A stretch of 20,989 nt of DNA from a virus, in IMG/VR virus record IMGVR_UViG_3300029319_000638, positions 1 to 20,989 of that record; one strand, written 5' to 3'. Under the pieces are notes generated by a model. That model searched no databases and was not told where the DNA came from. It was given only the letters and a program-made list of their open reading frames with translations. Made by a program: the position numbers and the translations under genes. Positions 20,004-20,989 of the stretch are shown here, in pieces; position 1 is the first letter of the stretch; the number at the start of each line of letters is the position of its first letter.

Positions 20004-20238
20004 GTTCTTGTTCTGAAAAATCTTCTTCACGCATACTTAGAACTTCACAAATTAACGCATTATGTTTTATAACAGCAGTTCTAATAAACTCTGTTACCCA
20101 TTTACCATTAGTTATAAGTTGAGCTTTTCGATTACCGTCAATAAAAACATAATGATCATAACCTCTTAAATCTTGATCTAATAATTTTTTTTCTAAGTTT
20201 GATATTCTATTTAATTTTAAAGTTTTTAATTTATTCAT
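19972..20238 (-). CDS. Unknown small protein downstream of the methyltransferase
   Basis: An 88-residue protein whose ATG lies inside the methyltransferase's last codons (eight-base overlap), so it is probably translated from the same message. It has a basic helical N-terminus (NKLKTLKLNRISNLEKKLLD), a beta pattern YDHYVFIDGNRKAQLI then NGKWVTEFIRTAV, and an acidic C-terminal helix (REEDFSEQELKDFEDGL). I do not recognise it. The position suggests a link with DNA modification or its regulation, but there is no DNA-binding motif that I can see. Confidence 0.55.
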   Translation of the reverse strand: MNKLKTLKLNRISNLEKKLLDQDLRGYDHYVFIDGNRKAQLITNGKWVTEFIRTAVIKHNALICEVLSMREEDFSEQELKDFEDGLLS

Positions 20239-20989
20239 TGTAATAAAGATCGTGTACTCTTTTCAGAGGTATAGCAGCGACTTGTGGCACTACTGAATTT
20301 CCGAGGGCTTTAGTTCTGTCCACCCTATAGGATAACCCATCATCTCCTCTACGAAGTATGGGCTTACTGACATATGATCTCCAATCTGGGTTAAGACATC
20401 TGGTAGCACCTTTGGCCCATATTTCTCGTTCCATTTGGCTGAAGTTCTGCCTTTGTAGTCTCTTGCTGTTGGAGTCGGTAGACTTTGTAAATGATTGAAC
20501 AACTCTACTGTTTGAGGATTCAATGCTTCTCGTAGATTTGCCAACTTGGTTCGCCCTTTGCGATGTATCGTTGTTTGTTTGATCATCGAATCCACTGATC
20601 GAGGAGGTAGGTGATCCATAGTCGTTGGTGTAGGCAACACACCACCACCTTGAACGTCTGTGGCAGGCTCCCAATGAACTCGCAGATATAACTGACCATT
20701 CTGCATCGTACCCTGCTTGGGAAAGCTCTCCGAGAACGATGTCCAATCCATTATTAAGGATCGCTGCCACGTTTTCCAAGACAACGAATCTTGGTCGAAC
20801 CATGCGTATGACTCGCATGAGTTCGTAAAAGATACCTGATCTGGATTCTTCTGTGATTCCAGCTCTATTTCCTGCCACTGATATTGATTGACAGGGAAAG
20901 CCTCCGCAGATGACATCATATTGTCCAGGGATAGCTGTGAATGTTCTGATGTCATCATGGATTGGAGTGAATGGAAAATGTTTTTTAAG
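20231..20989 (-). CDS. DNA cytosine-5 methyltransferase, partial (N-terminus outside window)
   Basis: The frame is open to the window edge, giving the last 252 residues. CGGFPCQSISVAG holds motif IV with the catalytic Cys (residue 33 of the visible part). FVVLENVAAIL is motif VI with Glu72. LGACHRRSRWW is motif VIII with His in place of the usual Gln. RVDRTKALGNSVVPQVAAIP forms motif X. Motif I with the SAM-binding loop lies beyond the edge. A GTG at 20878 is internal and is not the start. The region between motifs VIII and X is short (about 90 residues), so target recognition is compact. It likely methylates phage DNA to evade host restriction. The local DNA is clearly less AT-rich than the tail genes. 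Confidence 0.95.
   Translation of the reverse strand, partial: LKKHFPFTPIHDDIRTFTAIPGQYDVICGGFPCQSISVAGNRAGITEESRSGIFYELMRVIRMVRPRFVVLENVAAILNNGLDIVLGELSQAGYDAEWSVISASSLGACHRRSRWWCVAYTNDYGSPTSSISGFDDQTNNDTSQRANQVGKSTRSIESSNSRVVQSFTKSTDSNSKRLQRQNFSQMEREIWAKGATRCLNPDWRSYVSKPILRRGDDGLSYRVDRTKALGNSVVPQVAAIPLKRVHDLYYNE
20290..20958 (-). CDS. Overlapping frame with PTPT...D and MGYP-GW motifs, possible second gene inside the methyltransferase
   Basis: A 222-codon frame on the same strand as the methyltransferase, shifted and nearly wholly inside it, open even beyond its ATG at 20958. The translation contains SLSWKTWQRSL (residues 58-68), SESFPKQGTMQNGQLY (76-91), LPTPTTMDHLPPRS (108-121), LPTPTARDYKG (160-170) and EEMMGYPIGWTELKP (204-218). 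I know this order of motifs from a phage protein family often found near cytosine methyltransferases. Each of its motifs lies over a conserved methyltransferase motif, so it may be a real overprinted gene or a shadow kept open by methyltransferase constraint. No Shine-Dalgarno check is possible at its true start. Confidence 0.4.
   Translation of the reverse strand: MMTSEHSQLSLDNMMSSAEAFPVNQYQWQEIELESQKNPDQVSFTNSCESYAWFDQDSLSWKTWQRSLIMDWTSFSESFPKQGTMQNGQLYLRVHWEPATDVQGGGVLPTPTTMDHLPPRSVDSMIKQTTIHRKGRTKLANLREALNPQTVELFNHLQSLPTPTARDYKGRTSAKWNEKYGPKVLPDVLTQIGDHMSVSPYFVEEMMGYPIGWTELKPSEIQ

Follow-up and report, generated by a model that had tools for sequence, protein, structure and literature searches.

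Close to one end of a 20,989-nucleotide viral DNA (IMG/VR record IMGVR_UViG_3300029319_000638; the whole of this stretch is here called the window), a C5-cytosine methyltransferase frame is overlain on the same strand by a second long frame marked by LPTPT..D blocks, and the locus raises the question of whether both frames are genes. To our knowledge, genes that overlap over long stretches on one strand are rare and disputed in cells and phages. An initial sequence-only reading of the window had left two outcomes: real overprinting, or a second-frame family that is in part a shadow translation of methyltransferases. We refer to the methyltransferase frame as alpha and to the second frame, which is +1 relative to alpha, as beta or the PT frame.

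Translation confirmed the two overlapping frames, both on the minus strand, as are all features given below. Alpha (20231..20989) encodes 252 aa and is open at its 5′ end, where it is cut by the contig end. It matched Pfam PF00145 (1.8e-32), with the match stopping at position 231 of the 324 in the profile, and phrog_363 (4.5e-54). We checked four of its motifs individually by translation and found them in the order proposed: motif IV, GGFPCQ, with the catalytic cysteine (20888..20905); motif VI, ENV (20768..20776); motif VIII, HRRSR (20648..20662); and motif X, LGNSVVPQ (20282..20305), where the overlap ends. The region of motif I falls outside the contig; the motif is visible in relatives such as Synechococcus phage S-H1. 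Beta (20290..20958) runs from an ATG at 20958 to a stop at 20290 and encodes 222 aa, in agreement with the 222 stop-free codons counted earlier; up to the contig end at 20988, the frame is free of stops for 232 codons. It matched phrog_1008 (6e-22), whose label, 'DNA methyltransferase', is silent on the second-frame nature of PT, and profile scans gave neither a credible Pfam match nor any NCBIfam match. Alignment and codon positions mark conserved N-terminal blocks, SWKTWQRSL ... FPKQGTMQNGQLY (20686..20781), and these are followed by two LPTPT..D blocks, here called cassette A (20482..20637) and cassette B (20365..20481), both delimited by the cassette census described below and both within the region in which PT is the constrained frame. 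The base-for-base coincidence of motifs in the two frames, also described before, was confirmed and recurs in relatives.

The openness of beta is improbable by chance, as had been estimated. When the codons of alpha were permuted synonymously with its protein held fixed, none of 20,000 permutations reached a 232-codon +1 run (mean 95), and the same was true when codons were redrawn 20,000 times from the usage of ten other window genes (mean 60). The +2 frame of alpha contains 17 stops. Among 80 bacterial and archaeal loci (described below), 70 exceeded their own synonymous shuffles at the 1% level and 10 did not. One alternative to a real second gene is a mere shadow: the methyltransferase protein and codon bias would account for the openness and conservation of PT, which would have no product. 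The 10 loci in which openness alone is unremarkable fit this alternative; the permutation result for the window does not.

Searches of viral contigs with either protein as query yielded 116 loci on 86 contigs, close relatives only, and all 116 carried both frames in the same +1 phase; many of these loci are closely related to one another, and the counts are not counts of independent events. Up to the last 12 bases, every PT match among them was free of stops. All 50 of the loci that were retrieved with the alpha query, which are among the 116, are dual, and duality is therefore not merely an effect of searching with PT. We also observed the dual open arrangement in the methyltransferases of phages Synechococcus S-H1, Microcystis Mwe-JY08, Mycobacterium Spikelee, Bacteroides BF1-TP2 and Acinetobacter ABMM1, which have stops throughout their +2 frames. 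Every PT protein scanned (35 of 35) matched phrog_1008. PT is not uniformly better conserved than alpha: in identity to the window over the best segment, PT exceeded alpha in 42 and fell below it in 38 of the loci L001-L080. In a wider tblastn search of phage records, alpha gave 1350 matches and PT 17, so many methyltransferases are without a recognisable PT of the window type. As to existing annotations, the inner frame is entered as 'g55 internal gene' in Paenibacillus phage Shelly and as a second methyltransferase in Paenibacillus phage Bloom; in Vibrio phage 1.236.O (MG592600; L206:1355-2053), the PT frame alone is annotated, as a hypothetical protein, and the overlapping methyltransferase is unannotated.

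A comparison of synonymous constraint in both frames, which the sequence-only reading had proposed, revealed that constraint is handed from alpha to PT near motif VIII. We compared the window with 10 close relatives and summed the differences over the ten pairs, so that changes shared between relatives are counted more than once. Up to motif VIII, 63 of 88 differences fell at alpha position 3, whereas beyond it 227 of 278 fell at alpha position 1, the same base as beta position 3; expressed as variable sites, these figures were 30 of 47 and 56 of 84, respectively. Alpha position 3 was nearly frozen beyond motif VIII, differing at 1.8% compared with 31% in the alpha-only tail. Changes that alter alpha and are silent in beta occurred at 2.8 times the expected number in the second half and 0.45 times in the first, and those that alter beta and are silent in alpha at 0.2 times in the second half and 2.7 times in the first. 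Five other viral clades showed the same position switch, the most divergent of them weakly, and pooling 60 of 172 bacterial pairs gave it again; for these 60 pairs, the values at alpha positions 1, 2 and 3 were 0.16, 0.10 and 0.33 in the first half and 0.39, 0.24 and 0.29 in the second.

Beta is clearly under selection over the second half. Because the differences there fall on the beta wobble position, alpha in this half is mostly a translated shadow of selected beta; the shadow is thus the methyltransferase frame, the reverse of the shadow that had been suspected. The first half is dominated by alpha constraint, and selection on beta is moderately supported: changes at alpha position 3 were sixfold below those of the alpha-only tail in the comparison of the window with its 10 relatives, and were reduced 1.2- to 4.7-fold relative to alpha-only parts in the five viral clades and bacterial pairs. 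The conserved blocks at 20686..20781 follow this pattern, with alpha the more constrained frame and beta moderately so. In three loci (L078, L147 and L150), alpha has a stop after motif VIII and beta is open in all three. This openness, the concentration of second-half differences on PT position 3 and the recurrence of the switch in further viral clades and bacterial pairs all speak against a PT that is nothing but a shadow, an alternative that we regard as highly improbable. We conclude that PT is a real protein frame; of the two outcomes first envisaged, overprinting is the one borne out by the codon positions and permutations.

Outside viral contigs, scanning genomes with the PT alignment gave at least 594 pattern matches and 203 confirmed loci, the best 80 of which we examined. 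All 80 were dual, with PT lying over a methyltransferase in the same phase. By record title they belong to Pseudomonadota, Bacillota, Actinomycetota, Bacteroidota, spirochaetes and planctomycetes, among others. Many of the loci are MAG contigs, and a single MAG supplied both archaeal loci, so a viral origin is possible for some. Samples from four phyla (398, 299, 296 and 296 genomes) were also searched, with 7 or 10 candidates scored per genome. We classified 89 loci kept from the genome scans, which are partly the same genes as the 80 and include several that were fetched twice, and every PT match among them that reached motif IX had a methyltransferase overlapping it or in the same frame. 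Two weak partial PT matches without a methyltransferase, the one in L292 and one of the pair in L231, appear to be chance hits. Stand-alone PT homologues, which the sequence-only reading had suggested seeking, were thus absent from this set at that length, and its proposal that PT is a separate phage family did not hold: because PT matches reaching motif IX were always found over, or in frame with, a methyltransferase, and PT lay over one in all of the best 80 of 203 loci, it is better read as a predicted second chain of that enzyme. Three long matches first scored as containing stops (L213, L218 and L261) re-scored as open over profile positions 28-223, 28-216 and 9-223, respectively; L224 and L282 have broken or rearranged frames. 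The overlap arrangement is widespread in phages and bacteria and is often annotated as one frame only.

The suspicion of a shadow did stand for one class of match. Fifty rows from the four-phylum search ended by position 137 of the 229 in the PT profile, and 41 of these contained stops and 9 did not. Ordinary methyltransferases do give shadow matches that are limited to the N-terminal part of PT; this part is partly predictable from methyltransferase motifs IV-VIII, which fits the shadow alternative. The N-terminal part of the profile therefore picks up ordinary methyltransferases, and such hits cannot be counted as beta. Two loci with motif IX in the alpha frame (L250 and L253) nevertheless have shifted frames open for 157 and 165 codons, which match the N-terminal part of PT and may be intermediates or shadows; they, too, fit the shadow alternative.

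Several other loci depart from the common form. In L282 and L265, the alpha frame consists of two overlapping pieces in different frames, which could reflect rearrangements of the family or sequencing errors. Three loci from an enterobacterial plasmid and prophages (L299, L303 and L304) form a second, divergent subfamily, in which motif I is preceded by an N-terminal segment 'YYNE.DP.AA.WL.NLI' and the beta-like frames span 223-343 codons. One of them (L304:1941-3152; E. coli NZ_CP041110) is entered in RefSeq as two partial pseudogenes, 'DNA cytosine methyltransferase', across which a 404-aa alpha frame and a 343-aa beta frame are both open, and the pseudogene call is possibly an annotation artefact. 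In another E. coli locus (L302:1990-2791; NZ_CM129871), a decayed copy has both frames broken near the same place, and RefSeq records an internal stop.

The C-terminal end of beta points to what the second frame is. In canonical C5-methyltransferases, the alignment places motif IX, RRLTPRExARLQGFPD, shortly upstream of motif X. At this place the window alpha reads DGLSYRVDR, and motif IX is absent; beta reads SPYFVEEMMGYPIGWTEL (20311..20364). The sequence-only reading had noted 'MGYPIGWTEL' in the other frame as a feature of a phage family; beyond that, we found that it resembles the motif that alpha lacks. Bridging genes connect the two arrangements. The alpha frame reads HRLSPRFVEWLMGLPGGWVTDVPGLSHNQQLTLLGNGVVP in Actinomadura L195 (the same gene as L216) and MPEFVEWMMGLPAGWTAGPARTHRLRMLGNAVVP in L263, and in both genes the motif IX block stands in the alpha frame right before motif X while the LPTPT part remains in +1. 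In L266, the stretch matching profile positions 124-215 lies in the alpha frame. In gene 5 of Mycobacterium phage Bora and in L137, it is the beta frame itself that runs into motif X, and the Bora copy of motif IX aligns with the canonical one. A Pfam scan of these two beta frames did not find PF00145, so the motif IX-X reading in Bora and L137 rests on alignment and order. Because the bridging genes (L195, L263, L137 and Bora) hold motifs IX and X in one frame, we identify the C terminus of beta as a predicted methyltransferase motif IX. That a PT frame can run into motif X also counts against the shadow alternative.

As a control, the methyltransferase of Streptococcus Javan311 is a canonical single chain, with RKLTPRECWRLQGFPD in its one frame and both shifted frames broken. 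The sequence-only reading had held that methyltransferases with a broken shifted frame and a conserved protein, together with a lack of stand-alone PT homologues, would mark PT as a shadow. Taken literally, canonical single-chain enzymes such as Javan311 are of just this kind; they do not refute PT here, because the codon positions show selection where PT is intact.

Could PT instead be a gene in its own right, overprinted on the methyltransferase and unrelated to it in function, encoding for example an anti-restriction or regulatory protein? Its lack of a credible Pfam match, a solved relative or an AlphaFold fold would suit such a gene. AlphaFold models of beta were poor (pLDDT 44 and 62; pTM 0.17 and 0.29), a fold search gave only hits with E above 7, and the best match in a profile search of solved structures had an E of 0.11, which is at chance level. 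However, PT holds the motif IX that is absent from alpha, it was not found apart from a methyltransferase in the loci examined and the bridging genes join it to motif X. We therefore consider an unrelated function very unlikely.

A further alternative is that the locus makes a single full-length methyltransferase, by a programmed +1 frameshift after motif VIII into PT and perhaps another back before motif X. The change of constrained frame near motif VIII is what one chain crossing there would produce, and PT ends with motif X in Bora and L137, as such a chain might. The moderate support for beta selection upstream of motif VIII leaves additional room for it. However, many beta frames appear to have starts of their own. 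We scored 69 of the 80 bacterial loci, those in which motif I could be located, for twin starts; a script flagged 19, of which 15 have the exact form NTGAATG at the beginning, often behind a purine-rich run. In these 15, the beta ATG begins four bases downstream of the alpha start, and a TGA precedes it in its own frame. In the viral group of the window, 40 of 40 relatives looked at have an ATG at one or other of two neighbouring codons that lie over alpha Asp-Asp-Ile, and beta probably starts inside alpha, at the ATGATG (20953..20958) that lies over the alpha codons His-Asp-Asp; a pattern search found no Shine-Dalgarno-like run before this ATG. PT is also kept open across the whole N-terminal half, where a chain made by frameshifting would have no use for it, and an unsystematic look noticed no shared slippery site. 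A frameshifted single chain is accordingly unlikely in our judgement.

We favour the reading that one C5-methyltransferase is encoded as two chains by one stretch of DNA in two frames, an arrangement of the M.EcoHK31I kind, and we hold it with high confidence. Three of its elements are shown here: relatives keep the two frames together, beta is selected as a protein in its second half and motif IX stands at the C-terminal end of beta. The middle of beta bears on how the work may be divided between the two chains. We took a census of cassettes in the viral beta proteins of the window and 39 selected relatives (40 in all, some of them closely related), splitting the proteins at [LWFMIQ]PTP and clustering the cassettes on their first 26 residues. 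This gave 18 cassette types, 13 of which were seen repeatedly, with 1-5 cassettes per beta protein. Their order varies: the window has A-B, and others have B, C-A-B, D-A-B, A-J-D-H, L-C-D-A-H or C-D-F-A-E. Cassette D is about 150 residues long, and the alpha frame is open through it (L064, L066, L073, L074, L076, L109 and others); a stretch within it, TTIKELAAKTTIKKTTIEHWFRKDK, looks like a helix-turn-helix. One member of the scanned PT set matched phrog_4151, 'DNA binding protein' (0.0018). The cassettes may be target recognition domains and, as they are exchanged between relatives, they probably set the DNA sequences that the phage protects.

Two-chain enzymes of this class have been described. 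The small chain (176 aa) of M.EcoHK31I, a YGGCCR enzyme of two polypeptides, was reportedly found to be encoded within the large-chain gene in another frame (Lee, Kam and Shaw, 1995). According to the accessible text on this enzyme, motifs I-VIII and X are in one chain, the larger, and motif IX is in the second (PMC3404938), and the enzyme is called naturally split (PMC3439449). The window shares these features: a large chain with motifs IV, VI, VIII and X, those tested, and without IX; a predicted second chain with IX; and a second frame selected as protein, clearly in its second half and moderately in its first. The likeness drawn here is one of published chain layout. The same text predicts the target recognition domain of M.EcoHK31I in the larger chain (PMC3404938), whereas the codon data for the window point to beta as the chain with the constrained recognition region. 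The accessible part of the description of M.EcoHK31I also mentions no cassette arrays, no twin starts and no switching of motifs between frames. M.AquI (CYCGRG), as described in the available portion of PMC3404938, is also made of two chains and, as here, is split within the variable region, and Bora and L137 resemble it in having a second chain with motifs IX and X. It differs from the window, in which motif X is in alpha and the frames overlap almost wholly.

SPR and phi3T are Bacillus phages with multispecific C5-methyltransferases. Enzymes with several target recognition units in one polypeptide are described for Bacillus temperate phages in the accessible text of PMC12707154, and they resemble the window family in arraying several recognition units in one phage enzyme. 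They are single polypeptides, whereas the window has motif IX and the cassettes in another frame and is not of the single-chain type. We also considered the relaxed-specificity methyltransferases of Paracoccus and Sinorhizobium phages as a functional link (PMC6536676, PMC3925955 and PMC5537653) and rejected them; in the accessible parts of these papers, they are proteins of about 700 aa, and the YGGCCR enzyme that was tested is an m4C enzyme. Our literature search, which lay mostly outside subscription papers and REBASE, found in the accessible texts no description of this family as overlapping genes. What is new here is the breadth of the arrangement, the hand-over of constraint between frames, the shuffled beta cassettes and the twin starts four bases apart.

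How might the two frames work together? Alpha would supply the AdoMet-binding and catalytic motifs I-VIII, then a stretch that is mostly filler, then motif X. Beta, read in +1, would supply an N-terminal block over the catalytic motifs, one or more LPTPT..D cassettes and motif IX. We infer that both chains are made and associate, much as in M.EcoHK31I, with alpha as the catalytic domain and beta as the target-recognition (small) domain, and that the cassettes are specificities; exchange of beta cassettes would then probably determine which DNA sequences are protected in the phage. It is about an even bet that the family represents a widespread phage and bacterial class in which specificity resides in the hidden beta frame, with one exchangeable cassette per target, shuffled between phages with both frames kept open, and in which the middle of alpha is a shadow.

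The overlap described here recurs across bacterial phyla and phages and has a readable mechanism, and it provides an example of overprinting in which constraint is handed between frames inside one gene. Records entered as 'DNA cytosine methyltransferase' may describe half an enzyme, so that cloned genes could seem inactive and specificity could be mis-assigned. If the cassettes correspond to targets, the restriction sites that a phage protects would be predictable from its sequence alone.
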